Source: a virus
IMG/VR virus record: IMGVR_UViG_3300036398_003212
Coordinates: 1-20,032 of that record
DNA length: 20,032 nucleotides
Reading direction: 5' to 3' (one strand)
The translations under genes and the position numbers were made by a program. Positions 5,621-17,021 of this stretch are shown in pieces; positions within the stretch are counted from its first letter, which is position 1; each line of letters starts with the position of its first letter. The notes beneath the pieces are model-generated. The model saw only the letters and a list, made by a program, of their open reading frames with translations, made no database searches and had not been told where the DNA came from.

Positions 5621-6225
5621 TAGATCGCCTCCCGTGGCGCACGATACGGTCGAACCATCAATTCGACATCTGGATCCAATCGGGAAAGCAGCCTCACGAT
5701 CCCGCCTTCAGGTGATCCAGCGACTCCGAACGGAGTAGCCCGACGCGCATGCACGCGCACACTCTGGATCAATGCAGCGGCACGGATCGGTTCAGGGACG
5801 GCAGACCATCCCCGTGTGCCTACCACTTCAACGCCTTGGGTCACCCCGACGGGAAGTGTGTTTGAACCGAATGATGCGATCTGGATTGCCGTATATGGCC
5901 ACCCTTGAAATGTGGTGTTTTGCTGCAACCGATAGTCCATGTTTGGGGTCAATGTTTTGGTCACCGTGCCGGAATTGTTTTCGTCGGTCTTGACGGTGGT
6001 GACCGAAACCCAATCACCGATCGGGAGGAACATATAGTCGTTGGCGGTGAACACAACGGTTCCGGCGACCGAGTAGAAAAACCGCCCGCAATAATCGTCA
6101 ACGGCGCGGGACACGGCTTCAATCACATTGTCAATTTCTGCGGAGTCTGGAACCAGCGTTGCCGTCCCAAGACCAAGCGCATTTTGGACTTCTGCTTGGG
6201 TGACATATCCGTTCACGATTGCCAT
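5620..6225 (-). CDS. head-tail connector protein (gp6-like)
   Basis: A 201-residue protein with AGAAGGAG seven bases before its ATG. The N-terminal VTQAEVQNALGLG, then DNVIEAVSRAVDDYCGRFFY is the helical arrangement of HK97 gp6/SPP1 gp15-type connectors; a beta-rich middle (PIGDWVSVTTVKTDENNSG, MDYRLQQNTTFQGWPYTAIQI) and GVEVVGTRGWSAVPEPIRAAALIQSVRVHARRATPFGVAGSPEGG follow, very common in phage connector proteins of this position. The ring binds the portal after packaging. Stop and next start share one base (TAGTG). Confidence 0.85.
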   Translation of the reverse strand: MAIVNGYVTQAEVQNALGLGTATLVPDSAEIDNVIEAVSRAVDDYCGRFFYSVAGTVVFTANDYMFLPIGDWVSVTTVKTDENNSGTVTKTLTPNMDYRLQQNTTFQGWPYTAIQIASFGSNTLPVGVTQGVEVVGTRGWSAVPEPIRAAALIQSVRVHARRATPFGVAGSPEGGIVRLLSRLDPDVELMVRPYRAPREAI

Positions 6226-6264
6226 TTGGTTTCTCCTTCTGGGCGGATGGGTTGCTCGGTGATT

Positions 6265-6957
6265 CTAGCGCGTCCAACGCGCATCAAGCATCCCTTCCAC
6301 GCTTGCAATTTCGTCCCGTGCGGCGACAACGGATTCCCACGACGGCACGGAAGCGACGGCGGCGGGATCGCCCGCATCGTGCCATCCCCGAACCTTGAAC
6401 CACGGCATGTCCGAACCGTATCGGTTCAACAACATTGTCATCGGGGTTTCCTTGTCGCCAACCGTTGCAGCGTCAGAATGGGCGGCGGATGCAGCCTTTC
6501 GGAGCGCGTTCACATCCCCGAACGAATAGATCCCAATGCAGACTGGAACCCGTGGGATTCCGCGCACCCAATGCCCGCGCGCCGATGGCATATCCCAACG
6601 ACGCGCTGGGGCGGCCGCAACGCCAACCCAATCACCCGAAGACAATGGCTGCGGTGGGATCAGCGTATCCGCGAACACGACGGTCAATCCGTCCGTTTGA
6701 TTCGTCTGCGCCAAATACGCGTCCAACGCTCCAACCGGACCATTGAATTTGTTGGTTCCGATGATGGCGTTCGCCCACGGGACTTCATCTTCGATCGCGC
6801 GAACGGAATGATCATGCACGACGATCGAAATGTCAGACCCTTCAAATGCCCGACGATGCCATTCGTGGACGGGCAGACCGCCCGCCGTGACGAGCAATTT
6901 GTTCACGCCGCCAAGACGGGTCGCGCGCCCCGCGGCCAGAATGACGACCGGCTTCAC
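6265..6957 (-). CDS. nucleotidyltransferase, sugar-nucleotide-forming-like
   Basis: A 230-residue protein. The GTG at 6957 overlaps the upstream stop (GTGA) and gives MKPVVILAAGRATRLGGVNKLL, the standard LAAGxxxRxG...K start of NTP-transferases; the longer frame upstream has no Shine-Dalgarno sequence. Other signs are VVFADTLIPPQP (metal-binding Asp) and WFKVRGWHDAGDPAAVASV near the end, resembling the sugar-site 'W.D.GTP' of glucose-1-phosphate pyrophosphorylases. The enzyme would join an NTP with a sugar phosphate to make an activated sugar for the two glycosyltransferases. MobA-like or IspD-like activity cannot be ruled out. A 39-base gap with AGAAGGAG leads to the connector gene. Confidence 0.75.
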   Translation of the reverse strand: MKPVVILAAGRATRLGGVNKLLVTAGGLPVHEWHRRAFEGSDISIVVHDHSVRAIEDEVPWANAIIGTNKFNGPVGALDAYLAQTNQTDGLTVVFADTLIPPQPLSSGDWVGVAAAPARRWDMPSARGHWVRGIPRVPVCIGIYSFGDVNALRKAASAAHSDAATVGDKETPMTMLLNRYGSDMPWFKVRGWHDAGDPAAVASVPSWESVVAARDEIASVEGMLDARWTR

Positions 6958-7496
6958 GGTCGCGATTCGTGGTTCCATTCGGGTGTCAACCGATAGATCC
7001 ACGTCTTTTCTGGCACGGATAGGAATTGCGCCCCAGCGTCCAATGCTTTGACCCAGAATGTCCAGTCGTAGCCCTTCTGATTGTCCCAACCGCCAAGGTC
7101 AAGAATCAATTCGGTTCGCACGAATGCCGCGTGAGAAACGATGGACGATGTCCGCAATAAATTCCCGTCAAATGGTCGGTTGTATAGGTCAAACGATTTG
7201 TCACCAACGACATCGGCATATGAATAGACGATGTCAGCCCCCGCGCCGGAATAGTCCAACATCGTCGCCAGATGGTTCGGGAGCAGCAAATCGTCATCGT
7301 CCAGGATCTGCACCCATTTGGTTTCCACTTGCGACACGAGCAGATTCCGAACGCGCCAACCACCGACCCGTTGATAGTCAATGCCGATCAAATGATCAGA
7401 TGGCGGCATCGTCTGGGATGCGACGGATTGAATCGCGTCTTCGCGTAGTCGCCCGCGGTCGGGCAGACTTGCCGTGATCACGGTCACATCATTCAT
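6954..7496 (-). CDS. glycosyltransferase, GT-A fold (family 2), short
   Basis: A 180-residue protein, about half the usual GT2 length, so it is a catalytic core without the C-terminal extension. It begins MNDVTVITASLPDRGRLREDAIQSVASQTMPPSDHLIGID, the nucleotide-binding strand, and shows WVQILDDDDLLLPNHLATM with Asp 66-69 at the place of the DxD metal/sugar-phosphate site, and LGGWDNQKGYDWTFWVKAL near the catalytic region. A single-domain enzyme of this type usually works with a partner; here the GT-B enzyme in front and the nucleotidyltransferase behind are the candidates. ATGA overlap with the upstream gene and GTGA with the next gene. Confidence 0.85.
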   Translation of the reverse strand: MNDVTVITASLPDRGRLREDAIQSVASQTMPPSDHLIGIDYQRVGGWRVRNLLVSQVETKWVQILDDDDLLLPNHLATMLDYSGAGADIVYSYADVVGDKSFDLYNRPFDGNLLRTSSIVSHAAFVRTELILDLGGWDNQKGYDWTFWVKALDAGAQFLSVPEKTWIYRLTPEWNHESRP

Positions 7497-8734
7497 CGCT
7501 TCCGCCTCACGGCTGCACGCCGCTGCTCACGGTTGATTGGCTTGACACCTTCCGCCAACAAAGTTTCCATTGACGACAAAATCGGTCGCCAATGGGTTGC
7601 AAACACATTGTCCGTCTGGTACGGCTCGGCGAATTTGATGGACGCGGCACGCGCTTCTGACAATCTGGCCGCGTCACCTTTCAATGCATACGATTGTTCA
7701 AGCGCATCAATGATCCCGTCAACGGATGGCAACTTCCAGAATGACCCCTGAAATTCGTCCCATTCTTTTTGCCCTTCAACAACCCACCCGTGACCGACCA
7801 ACTCTGGCGATGCCGTCCAATTCGTGACGATCACCGGAACGCCCGTGGCTTGGGCTTCTAGTGTCGGGACACCGAAGCCTTCTCCCCGTGCCGCGCCGAG
7901 CAGCACATCGCTTGATCGAATCAATGCGGCAACCGTCTGCGCGGAAATGCCCATCCGATATTCAAATTGTGGAACGATGCGAACTTGCTTTTCTGGCGCA
8001 CCAACCGCTTTCAACAGCCGAGGGATGTTCACGCCGCTTGCGATGCCGGATGCTTCCGTGTGAAGGTACAAAAACGCATCGTCGTGCCGTCGTGCGAATT
8101 CCGACCACGCGGCCAGATTTTCAGGGAAGCACTTTCGGATAGGGGTGTTGCCCTTGTTGGCGGCGTTCATTGTGGTCAAATGCGCGTCCGCAGGGATCTG
8201 CATTTTGTCGCGCATCGTTTCGCCGTCTGGACTGAAAATGTTTGGGTCGTATGAATGCGGCGCATAAAACACCCGCTCGCGGGAAATCCCCGAATCAAGC
8301 AACGCTTGTTCGCCGAATTTTGACATTGCCAATGCCCATTTTCGACCAGGACGATTGAAAAATGTGGACACCTCTGGCGTGACCGGATCGTGGTCAACGG
8401 GTGTCCAACATAGCAGCGGCACTTCATCCCATTGCGGTGCTTTGAAGACCCAAACATCAAACAATGTCAAGCCAAGCCCGCGATGTCGCTGGTCGCCAAT
8501 GTGGTTCGCGATCTGCGCGGGATGGATGTCATTGGAATATGCATCAATGCCTTGCGGGAAAACCGGAACGGGCGGATTGCCCCAATTGATGATCGAACCC
8601 GCAAGCCCGTGATTCGCGAGGATCGCGACTTCGTGGCCGTCTGCAACCAAACGCGGAACGATTTCCGCGGTTTGCACGCCATATCCCGATCCCGTCCAAG
8701 GGGCATTGCTTGACCAAGCGATGCGGAGCGTCAT
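7493..8734 (-). CDS. glycosyltransferase, GT-B fold (GT4-like)
   Basis: A 413-residue protein. The ATG at 8734 follows GGAGGGTGAGGCA; a TTG five codons upstream lies in the ribosome binding site itself. The N-terminal Rossmann half begins with MTLRIAWSSNAPWTGSGYGVQTAEI, the glycine-rich acceptor-side loop; residues 109-125 read LLCWTPVDHDPVTPEV. The C-terminal half has ARGEGFGVPTLEAQATGVPVIVTN with Glu 285 and Glu 293, the E-x7-E sugar-nucleotide motif of GT4 enzymes. The end is very basic (REQRRAAVRRKR), useful for binding a virion or DNA surface. The enzyme moves a sugar from a nucleotide donor onto an acceptor; capsid or tail glycosylation is the inferred role from context. Its stop overlaps the next gene (ATGA). 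Confidence 0.88.
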   Translation of the reverse strand: MTLRIAWSSNAPWTGSGYGVQTAEIVPRLVADGHEVAILANHGLAGSIINWGNPPVPVFPQGIDAYSNDIHPAQIANHIGDQRHRGLGLTLFDVWVFKAPQWDEVPLLCWTPVDHDPVTPEVSTFFNRPGRKWALAMSKFGEQALLDSGISRERVFYAPHSYDPNIFSPDGETMRDKMQIPADAHLTTMNAANKGNTPIRKCFPENLAAWSEFARRHDDAFLYLHTEASGIASGVNIPRLLKAVGAPEKQVRIVPQFEYRMGISAQTVAALIRSSDVLLGAARGEGFGVPTLEAQATGVPVIVTNWTASPELVGHGWVVEGQKEWDEFQGSFWKLPSVDGIIDALEQSYALKGDAARLSEARAASIKFAEPYQTDNVFATHWRPILSSMETLLAEGVKPINREQRRAAVRRKR

Positions 8735-8755
8735 TGCCTCACCCTCCAAATAAAA

Positions 8756-15103: not shown

Positions 15104-15787
15104 CTATGTCCGCGCTCGTTGCAGATCCCCGAATGTTGCGGTGCCTTGCTTTTTCTTGAATTGCGGGATGTTGTTGGCGACAATGCCGATCCGATTGGTG
15201 GGTGCGGTGATCGCCAAAATGTCGGACGCTTCTTGATTGAAGTATCCCGCCGCTTCCAATGATTGAGCGTCGGGAAAAACCTCGGCGTGCCGGTCGTTCA
15301 CCGTGTCAATCAAATGGTCTTCTTTGCCGCCCATCGAATACAGCCATTGGAAATTTGACGGGGAATGCCCGACGGCCAACCGTTTGAATCTGGACACTTC
15401 TTTCGTGTACGCGTAAAACACGACGGATGGGTGGGCAGCGGCAATCCGCATCCACGCCATCAAATAGTCGTCAGCGAAAAAATCACTCGCGTCGTGGATG
15501 CGAACATATGCGCCCGCTTTGACGAATCGTTTGATTTCGTCATTCATCGCCGCTTCCCATCCGACGGGATCATCCAACACGAATTTCAAGTTGCGAGCGT
15601 GTGCCGCTTTGACGGGCTTGAACCGGAATGTGCCGTTCCTGGCGTAGCACAACGCCGCGCATGCGCCCGCTTGCGGGCAAGTGTGGATCGTTCGACCATC
15701 ATCAAGTTTCGCGCCAAGCGCGGGGATCGTCCAATTCCATGCGCCGATTTCACGCAATTCGCGATTCTGCCGAAGTAGCCTTGTCAT
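15104..15787 (-). CDS. GP88-family protein, Cys-cluster TIM-barrel-like
   Basis: A 227-residue protein resembling the 'gene product 88' family known mainly from actinobacteriophages, of unknown activity. Conserved-looking parts are HTCPQAGACAALCYARNGTF (Cys 37, 43 and 47: C-x5-C-x3-C), VKAAHARNL (59-67), AYVRIHDASDFFADDYLMAW (93-112), SVVFYAYTKE (121-130) and PSNFQWLYSMGG (143-154). Alternating strands and helices with three clustered cysteines near the N-terminus suggest a TIM-barrel protein with an Fe-S or zinc site, comparable in outline to radical SAM enzymes though the spacing is not CxxxCxxC. I start it at the ATG at 15787 after GGGGGGCGA; an ATG at 15856, seven bases after the Mom stop, would add 23 residues. 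Its place behind Mom suggests, but does not prove, a joint pathway. Confidence 0.75.
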   Translation of the reverse strand: MTRLLRQNRELREIGAWNWTIPALGAKLDDGRTIHTCPQAGACAALCYARNGTFRFKPVKAAHARNLKFVLDDPVGWEAAMNDEIKRFVKAGAYVRIHDASDFFADDYLMAWMRIAAAHPSVVFYAYTKEVSRFKRLAVGHSPSNFQWLYSMGGKEDHLIDTVNDRHAEVFPDAQSLEAAGYFNQEASDILAITAPTNRIGIVANNIPQFKKKQGTATFGDLQRART

Positions 15788-15862
15788 TCGCCCCCCGTGT
15801 TTGGAGCGCGCGGATCGCATCACAGCGTCCTCTTCCCCGATGGAATCGGGGCGCATCGTTCC

Positions 15863-16507
15863 CTATGCTTCGCGCGCGTCTGGCGTGGATTCTACCTTGA
15901 TCGGATACGGTTGAGCAAGCGGCGCAACCTGTTGCCGCATTTGATCATCCAATGGCATCAAATAGCGGTGCTTGCCTTCCTTCACAACCGCGGTTGCGTT
16001 GGGGTCAAAATTCCGTCGCACGGCCGCCAATGAATTTTCCGATCCTTTCTGCACGACGCTTCGCGGGTGTCGGACACGACCGTGGATTTTGAAATAGGTT
16101 GCTTTCCCCATTGTCCCCGTATAAATCCACCCGCCCGCTTTATAGATCCCCCCCGCGTGACCCTCTGCCGGATCTGCGAACGACACGACCAAACGGAGTC
16201 CAGGATAGGTTTTTTTGAGCATTCGCAACGCGATGGCGATGACACGGGACACGGGTGTTTTGTGTTTGGTCATTGCCACCCGAACCAATTCGCAACCCTC
16301 GAACAAGCCCAGACCATACGGCTTCAACAATTGCGGTGTTGCGCCACCGCCGAAAATCACCGTTCCGACGAACTTGTCATCCTCCCAAACGCCGAGGCAC
16401 GACAATTTGAACGATGGCATTTGCCGCGAGTAGTGCCATTTTTCAACCGCGTATTTTGCCGCTTGTCTGGAACACCAATCAACGCGAAGGCTATGGCCGC
16501 CATTCAT
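15863..16507 (-). CDS. Mom-like DNA adenine modification protein
   Basis: A 214-residue protein starting at the ATG at 16507 after CCGGGGTGCGGAT; the longer frame upstream only shadows ParB. The order of motifs matches the phage Mu Mom family, a GNAT-fold branch: KWHYSRQMP (24-31), LGVWEDDKFVGTVIFGGGA (38-56), GCELVRVAMT (71-80), PVSRVIAIALRMLKKTYPGL (85-104), VVSFADPAEGHAGGIYKAGGWIYTG (107-131). Mom turns adenine in DNA into a carbamoylmethyl derivative, making phage DNA resistant to many restriction enzymes. Residues after about 145 are a basic tail with GKHRYLMPLDD that Mu Mom need not share. In Mu, expression is tightly controlled because modification is toxic; the palindrome upstream of the operon may serve this. 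The family call is firm by pattern; the exact chemistry here is inferred. Confidence 0.82.
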   Translation of the reverse strand: MNGGHSLRVDWCSRQAAKYAVEKWHYSRQMPSFKLSCLGVWEDDKFVGTVIFGGGATPQLLKPYGLGLFEGCELVRVAMTKHKTPVSRVIAIALRMLKKTYPGLRLVVSFADPAEGHAGGIYKAGGWIYTGTMGKATYFKIHGRVRHPRSVVQKGSENSLAAVRRNFDPNATAVVKEGKHRYLMPLDDQMRQQVAPLAQPYPIKVESTPDAREA

Positions 16508-17021
16508 ATCCGCACCCCGGACATTTGATTGGGTTTTTCTGATCAAGTTGTGATTGTTCGCCCACCGTGCCGATGTCAAACTTCGGTGCTTCGGCTCCGG
16601 TCGCATGTGCCAGATTGCCGAGCAGTTCAGCGACTTCAGATGATGACGGTGTGATCTCCGCCAATAGTTCGCCCAACCGTGCGGGATCTGCAAATGCCAA
16701 ATCACCAAGCGGGTCATATGTCGCCAACACCAATCGTTCTTCGTCTTCGGTCAGTTCAACATATGACACGGGGATCATCGTTTCATCGCGTGCCAGCGCA
16801 AGTTCAACGCGCAGGTGTCCATCAATCAGCCGTCCAGTTGTACGGTTGACGATAACGGGCGCGACGAATCCAACTTGATCAAGCACGGCGGCCAACGCTT
16901 CCCGTTGACCCGACGGATGCCCGCGCCAATTCGATGGATTGGCAAGCAATTGATCGGGCGACTCTTCGCCGGACGCGACGATGCGCGACCTAAACGCCTC
17001 TGAAAATCCTCCGTTTGTCAT
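16491..17021 (-). CDS. ParB-like nuclease domain protein
   Basis: A 176-residue protein. I use the ATG at 17021 (MTNGGFSEAF), which fits the TAnnnT-N6-ATG leaderless arrangement; ATGs further upstream would run into the promoter. Residues 28-95 are a ParB/sulfiredoxin-fold N-terminal domain: NPSNWRGHPSGQREAL, VAPVIVN, then RLIDGHLRVELAL (the DGHxR motif at 67-71) and a closing PVSYVELTEDEERLVLATYD. Residues 168-173 add CPGCGYEW, half of a zinc ribbon. In phages such proteins commonly lie next to DNA methylases or other DNA modification genes and act as DNA nucleases/NTPases or specificity factors rather than in partition; no ParA is visible. The end overlaps the Mom-like gene by 17 bases, so the two are translationally linked. 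Confidence 0.85.
   Translation of the reverse strand: MTNGGFSEAFRSRIVASGEESPDQLLANPSNWRGHPSGQREALAAVLDQVGFVAPVIVNRTTGRLIDGHLRVELALARDETMIPVSYVELTEDEERLVLATYDPLGDLAFADPARLGELLAEITPSSSEVAELLGNLAHATGAEAPKFDIGTVGEQSQLDQKNPIKCPGCGYEWRP

Follow-up and report, generated by a model that had tools for sequence, protein, structure and literature searches.

In the stretch of viral DNA analysed here (20,032 nucleotides of IMG/VR record IMGVR_UViG_3300036398_003212, hereafter the window) a gene for a degenerate tRNA-Gly was found at the end of mom, the gene of a Mom-family DNA modification enzyme which is itself preceded by the gene of a ParB-like protein. We consider it quite likely that ParB, Mom and the dedicated tRNA-Gly form one cassette, in which Mom would use a glycyl-tRNA that is charged by the host and escapes translation as its donor. 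All genes lie on the minus strand, parB first and then mom, GP88, terS and terL, and the features of the locus are as follows.

16491..17021, minus strand: parB, ParB-fold protein of 176 aa and first gene of the cassette, upstream of mom (phrog_620, 4e-15; PDB profile match)
16494..16580, minus strand: C-terminal tail of parB, putative half zinc ribbon CPGCGYEW (invariant columns in alignment A1)
16491..16507, minus strand: overlap of the parB stop and the mom start, 17 bases (sequence)
15863..16507, minus strand: mom, Mom-family DNA modification enzyme of 214 aa (PF25680, 1.4e-47; phrog_1384, 5e-56; model pLDDT 90)
15802..15877, minus strand: gene of a degenerate 73-nt tRNA-Gly with UCC anticodon, and the CCA encoded after it (covariance models R1 and R2; fold)
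15104..15787, minus strand: GP88 with its corrected, likely start, a neighbour which is probably outside the modification system (PF17338; ATG 15787 after GGGGGG)

The Mom enzyme and its ParB neighbour

A sequence-only reading of this DNA had described the ParB, Mom and GP88 genes as a three-part modification cassette. All three minus-strand open reading frames are present in the order it gave, and the 17-base overlap that it reported is exact, with the mom start at 16507 and the parB stop at 16491; translation of the two genes may be coupled through it. Its family calls were upheld by PF25680 and phrog_1384 for Mom, PF17338 for GP88 and phrog_620 for the ParB-like protein, and the Mom motifs WHYS, FGGGA and SFADP were all located in the window protein.

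The window Mom matched PF25680 with 162.4 bits (curated cut-off 27.1, E 1.4e-47) and, among the PHROGs, phrog_1384 (5e-56). Its predicted structure (pLDDT 90) had Mu Mom (8bv8) as top PDB match with an E value of 1e-12, and comparison of the model with this entry recovered the GNAT-like fold of the Mu enzyme. S124 of Mu Mom (NSESRAIS; NSEARAIS in the mutant chain), whose mutant is named inactive in PDB entry 8bv8, aligns with S87 of the window protein (PVSRV). The usual GNAT CoA-binding loop RxxGxG was not found in Mom; at this position the start of the helix reads HKTPVSRVIAIAL and similar, with no glycines. As side observations, the Mom proteins of L008 and L009 are 75% identical to that of the window, whereas ParB is 95%, TerS 99% and, for L008, the tRNA 100% identical, and from these sequences mom seems to have been swapped or to be quickly diversifying; tandem Mom genes were noted in L040, L059, L065, L078, L083 and L095, with the tRNA 3' of the last copy.

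For the window ParB no Pfam model matched, and its assignment came from phrog_620 (ParB-like, 4e-15) and from the family alignment A1 of 20 ParB proteins, which matched Spo0J/ParB structures in the PDB (1vz0 at 9e-11). It differs from the architecture of a chromosome-partition ParB: the protein has just 176 aa, the PDB matches span about the first 80-120 profile positions, and the helix-turn-helix and C-terminal dimer domain of partition ParB were not found in the window protein. Instead it ends in KCPGCGYEWRP with one CPxC pair. Between the window's ParB and those from outside its lineage, identity is only 21-43%, yet the tail columns F, LD and CPxC do not vary in A1, which indicates that the tail is under its own constraint; it is likely half a zinc ribbon for docking or dimerisation.

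Mom homologues were gathered from viral contigs and bacterial genomes, and ParB lies directly upstream of mom at 102 of the 122 distinct loci having upstream sequence. Some of the remaining loci are second copies of tandem Moms, and in other exceptions ParB and Mom are separated by an open reading frame of 73 aa, which is of unknown family and was seen in L076, L079, L084 and L086. The CxxC tail is carried by 100 of the 102 Mom-adjacent ParB proteins. In the Psychrobacter-type Mom group, comprising Moms related to that of Psychrobacter phage Y8A (28.6% identical to the window's), 78 of 80 loci have a ParB match close to mom, and the CxxC tail was not seen on the ParB of this group. ParB-Mom is a true recurring cassette; this part of the proposed three-gene unit also recurs across genomes, whereas its GP88 part does not (see below).

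The closest isolate relatives of the window's ParB domain lie within phage DNA methylases (H122-H124), which suggests a targeting role. The same relationship speaks against a guard nuclease attacking unmodified DNA, by which the ParB-Mom pair would become a phage-borne restriction-modification system. Nuclease is a frequent annotation for ParB-like domains, and jumbo phages have fusions of Mom domains with nucleases (PMC7824862), but our analysis showed no nuclease motif, and we regard a guard nuclease as unlikely. Phage proteins in which a ParB-like domain is joined to a DNA methyltransferase also combine ParB with DNA modification; they differ in using a methyl group and AdoMet, not Mom and a tRNA, and in being fused, not an overlapping gene with half a zinc ribbon.

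The degenerate tRNA-Gly at the end of mom

An annotated tRNA-Gly directly follows mom in Microbacterium phage Appa and in Salinibacter phage B2_17; the Arthrobacter phages Sonny and Wyborn are, like Appa, laboratory phages with the cassette. ARAGORN, run over all loci, called 23 tRNAs, 15 of them tRNA-Gly and almost all of these at the end of mom; it missed the one in the window, and most of the mom-linked RNAs also escaped the Rfam tRNA model RF00005, so that two covariance models were used instead. R1, built from six ARAGORN tRNA-Gly of which none came from the window's lineage, found the window RNA at 15877-15805 on the minus strand (46.9 bits, E 8e-9). R2, built from 57 sequences with the window's included, gave 69.3 bits (E 5e-16) for the same RNA, the next-best match in the window reaching 13 bits with filters off. 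Folded alone, the window RNA has as its minimum free energy structure a cloverleaf whose T-stem contains a bulged A (z -2.8); its T-loop reads UGUGAU. The gene straddles the end of mom, its first bases being the last mom codons and the stop, and a CCA is encoded after it, to 15802. The tRNA is identical between the window, L002 and L008, and in L006 a compensatory change from C-G to U-A occurs in the T-stem. A tRNA-Gly gene at 15877-15805 is well supported.

Among 112 distinct Mom loci, the 3' end of mom carries the RNA in 102 (103 with L081, recognised by eye); these counts depend on how the loci were chosen, namely for their resemblance to the window's Mom and a few other queries. Many of these RNAs were detected by R2 though they are outside its training set, and usually the RNA is the single strong match on the whole contig. 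In the window's Mom group 80 RNAs lie wholly within the mom open reading frame and 20 across its stop. GP88-only control loci (65 loci, 586 kb) gave no match with E<0.3. The Psychrobacter-type group, which is out of sample, has the RNA in 69 of 75 loci; among 51 analysed loci it lies within 120 nt of mom in 48 and on the opposite strand in 12, as it does in phage Appa. In the L166-type Mom group the RNA stands upstream of mom in 10 of 75; R2 matches of 25-34 bits in this group were mostly ordinary tRNA-Arg/Thr in tRNA arrays and were not counted. Since opposite-strand and upstream positions occur, the RNA would act in trans.

At Mu-type Mom loci neither ParB nor the RNA was found (0 of 32), indicating that not every Mom depends on a dedicated tRNA. 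Eleven further, diverse phages likewise gave no such RNA next to mom, phiEf11, L032 and L210 have a ParB-bearing Mom locus without it, and phiEf11 and a few prophages carry Mom without the RNA. L233 (Psychrobacter phage Y8A) has two copies in tandem, at 1820-1884 and 1892-1957, after ParB-Mom and before the terminase. In L020 the RNA appears at 19-89 and again at 2175-2245, at both ends of a contig of 2277 bases, probably through an assembly end overlap.

Among 96 distinct RNAs of the window's Mom group 98.0% of the cells were paired and 17 of 21 pairs showed changes on both sides, compared with at most 41% pairing in slid controls; the alignments (A7, A8 and A10) came from fitting to the model and are thereby biased to the structure and anticodon of the model, and the slide controls offset that only partly. 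The bacterial tRNA-Gly identity set consists of U73, G1-C72, C2-G71, G3-C70, C35 and C36 (PMC9976931). G1-C72, C2-G71, G3-C70 and U73 are invariant in all 96 RNAs, the window's included, and CC, corresponding to C35 and C36, is present in all 96 anticodon loops, while acceptor pairs 4-7 vary freely among the same RNAs. Judged by sequence, the RNA carries the bacterial glycine identity. The model was built on glycine tRNAs, yet it matches at 30-90 bits, so that most RNAs could lose identity positions and still score; furthermore, ARAGORN, which has no glycine bias, also calls glycine for most of the RNAs it detects. The genes of 70 among 102 RNAs include the CCA.

The remainder of the cloverleaf is degenerate. 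A bulged base on the 3' strand of the T-stem is present in 83 of 96 RNAs, the T-loop starts with UUC in 24 of 96 only, a D-arm of at least 3 pairs was seen in 57 of 96 and no regular D-arm in the other 39, and U33 is missing from many anticodon loops. The combination expected of an elongator tRNA (5-bp T-stem, UUC T-loop, D-arm with GG, U33) was not found in these RNAs. At the sequence level they do show a weakened EF-Tu site in the T-stem, as in non-proteinogenic tRNA-Gly. In the Psychrobacter-type group a regular UUC T-loop occurs in 34 of 55 RNAs, and many anticodon loops have 8 nt. Forms of 65-67 nt without a regular D-arm, often with the anticodon ACC, were observed in L077, L085, L113 and about 35 other loci; D-armless tRNAs are familiar mainly from mitochondria.

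Two other readings of the RNA have to be weighed. It might be a cis-acting tRNA-like element at the end of the mom message, where it would stabilise this message or have it cut (RNase P, CCA addition), limiting the toxic Mom. The overlap with the end of the mom frame in the window's group would fit such an element, as would the toxicity of Mom under artificial expression (PMC12707154). An element of this kind is nevertheless quite improbable, since the RNA lies on the opposite strand in the Psychrobacter-type loci mentioned above (12 of 51) and in Appa and upstream of mom in another Mom group, and since the glycine identity, the NCC anticodon and the encoded CCA would be needless. Alternatively, the RNA might be an ordinary phage tRNA for glycine codons, or an att site within a tRNA gene, in either case placed beside mom by chance or shared descent. 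tRNAs are common in phages and so is integration into tRNA genes; the glycine calls of ARAGORN, however, fall almost exclusively at mom, the RNA is usually the sole tRNA-like match per contig, the damage to T-arm and D-arm together with 8-nt anticodon loops makes it unfit for decoding, and a passive att remnant is contradicted by the double changes across the whole cloverleaf. This second alternative appears very improbable.

The GP88 neighbour

GP88 matched PF17338 with 172.4 bits (curated cut-off 24.4, E 1.7e-50) and has three invariant cysteines, C37, C43 and C47 (C-x5-C-x3-C); a search of its model (pLDDT 93) against the PDB gave no convincing match (best E 0.13). The start at 15856 assumed in the sequence-only reading had to be moved. 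The stretch formerly read as the beginning of GP88 shows indels of 1-2 bases between relatives of the window and belongs to the tRNA gene; ATG 15787 is preceded by a GGGGGG ribosome site directly after the tRNA CCA. Because tRNA, CCA, GGGGGG and ATG 15787 succeed each other there, the first 23 codons of the GP88 frame as earlier drawn correspond to the tRNA and a spacer, and ATG 15787 is likely the true start.

Elsewhere GP88 has terminase genes, a metallophosphoesterase or QueC as neighbours, QueC being directly upstream in L142 (5219-5983) and L145 (3-689). Any Mom was found on the contig of only 8 of 72 distinct GP88 loci, nearly all of them of the window's own lineage, and two other Mom groups gave 4 GP88 matches in 155 loci. 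On these neighbour counts GP88 was rejected as a member of the modification pathway; it is probably a bystander, and the proposal that it supplies or modifies the modifying group is unsupported, the tRNA being the more likely source. A three-enzyme pathway of ParB, Mom and GP88 is hardly credible: GP88 is kept with Mom in the window's lineage, its cysteines could hold a metal cluster and on L166 it is also near the RNA and a distant Mom (at 5998-7581, in the order GP88, tRNA-Gly-like RNA, Mom, with the RNA upstream of mom), but this stands against the few GP88 contigs with any Mom, the relative L010, in which ParB-Mom-tRNA is followed by terS with GP88 absent, and the loci with GP88 beside QueC or a metallophosphoesterase.

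Apart from this locus, GT4 and GT2 glycosyltransferases and a MobA-like NTP transferase are encoded at 6265-8749 of the window, between the capsid and downstream structural genes; this block is possibly a second decoration cassette.

Glycyl-tRNA as putative donor for DNA modification

The product of Mu Mom is a carbamoylmethyl group on adenine N6. By arithmetic this adduct, C2H3NO (+57.02 Da), equals one glycyl residue. In the mechanism that we propose as the most parsimonious, the bacterial glycyl-tRNA synthetase of the host would charge the phage tRNA, in which all identity elements are kept, with glycine. The altered T-arm, with its bulged stem base and changed loop, and often the D-arm would render it unfit for EF-Tu and the ribosome, and the glycyl-tRNA would thus be reserved for Mom. 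Mom, having a GNAT fold without the usual CoA-binding loop, would then move the glycine onto adenine N6 in phage DNA. Direct acyl transfer would yield N6-glycyl-adenine, whose amine could attack C6 via a five-membered ring to give the isomeric N6-carbamoylmethyl (glycinamide) adenine as in Mu. ParB would probably load or guide Mom on the DNA, and the modification may protect it against restriction.

Several observations weigh against the tRNA as donor. Mu-type Moms (0 of 32 with the RNA) would need host glycyl-tRNA or another donor, and in phiEf11 and the few prophages Mom comes without the RNA. The UUC T-loop is retained in about a quarter of the RNAs and in most of those in the Psychrobacter-type group, and the model-fitted alignments favour the structure and anticodon of the model. 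Taking the family as a whole, we regard it as likely that several Mom clades have their own charged, translation-incompetent tRNA-Gly as obligate donor and ParB as loader, and that Mu-type Moms use host glycyl-tRNA.

The com-mom system of phage Mu resembles the window in its PF25680 Mom of the same fold with the aligned essential serine (8bv8) and in a gene for a cysteine-pair protein that overlaps the mom start. It differs in that a four-cysteine Com (two pairs) replaces ParB, whose tail has one CPxC pair in the window, and in that no such tRNA is present at mom. The ParB tail as a possible remnant of Com was kept only as a lead, with two cysteines versus four and no testable homology. For the Mom donor, which is not settled in the open-licence papers searched, an acyl-CoA such as glycyl-CoA has been named (PMC7824862). 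In Staphylococcus aureus a dedicated tRNA-Gly with altered T-stem and D-loop feeds the non-ribosomal FemXAB transferases (PMC4052509, PMC9976931), and in the three cell-wall tRNA-Gly the EF-Tu pairs of the T-stem are weak and G18G19 is gone (PMC4052509). Those tRNAs are chromosomal and their target is peptidoglycan, whereas the RNA described here is carried by phages, is linked to an enzyme that modifies DNA and is degenerate to a higher degree, with its bulged T-stem and loss of the D-arm. Toxins of the TacT type share the GNAT fold with Mom. As acetyltransferases they recognise glycyl-tRNA via U73 and G71 (PMC9976931); TacT acetylates the charged tRNA, whereas Mom would remove the glycine.

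What is new is the tRNA-dependent mechanism, the Mom and ParB families being already known. We know of no dedicated tRNA partner for a DNA-modifying enzyme, and among open-licence papers, without preprints, no link of Mom with glycyl-tRNA, aminoacyl-tRNA or ParB was found. The association also reveals a family of degenerate tRNAs, D-armless ones included, that is largely missed by ARAGORN and Rfam. Since many phages have such a dedicated, degenerate tRNA-Gly tied to mom, the question of the Mom donor becomes directly testable. If the proposed mechanism is true, DNA would join peptidoglycan, lipids, protein ends and antibiotics as a target of aminoacyl-tRNA-dependent transferases, and the cassette would suggest phage-derived tools by which amino acids could be installed on DNA.
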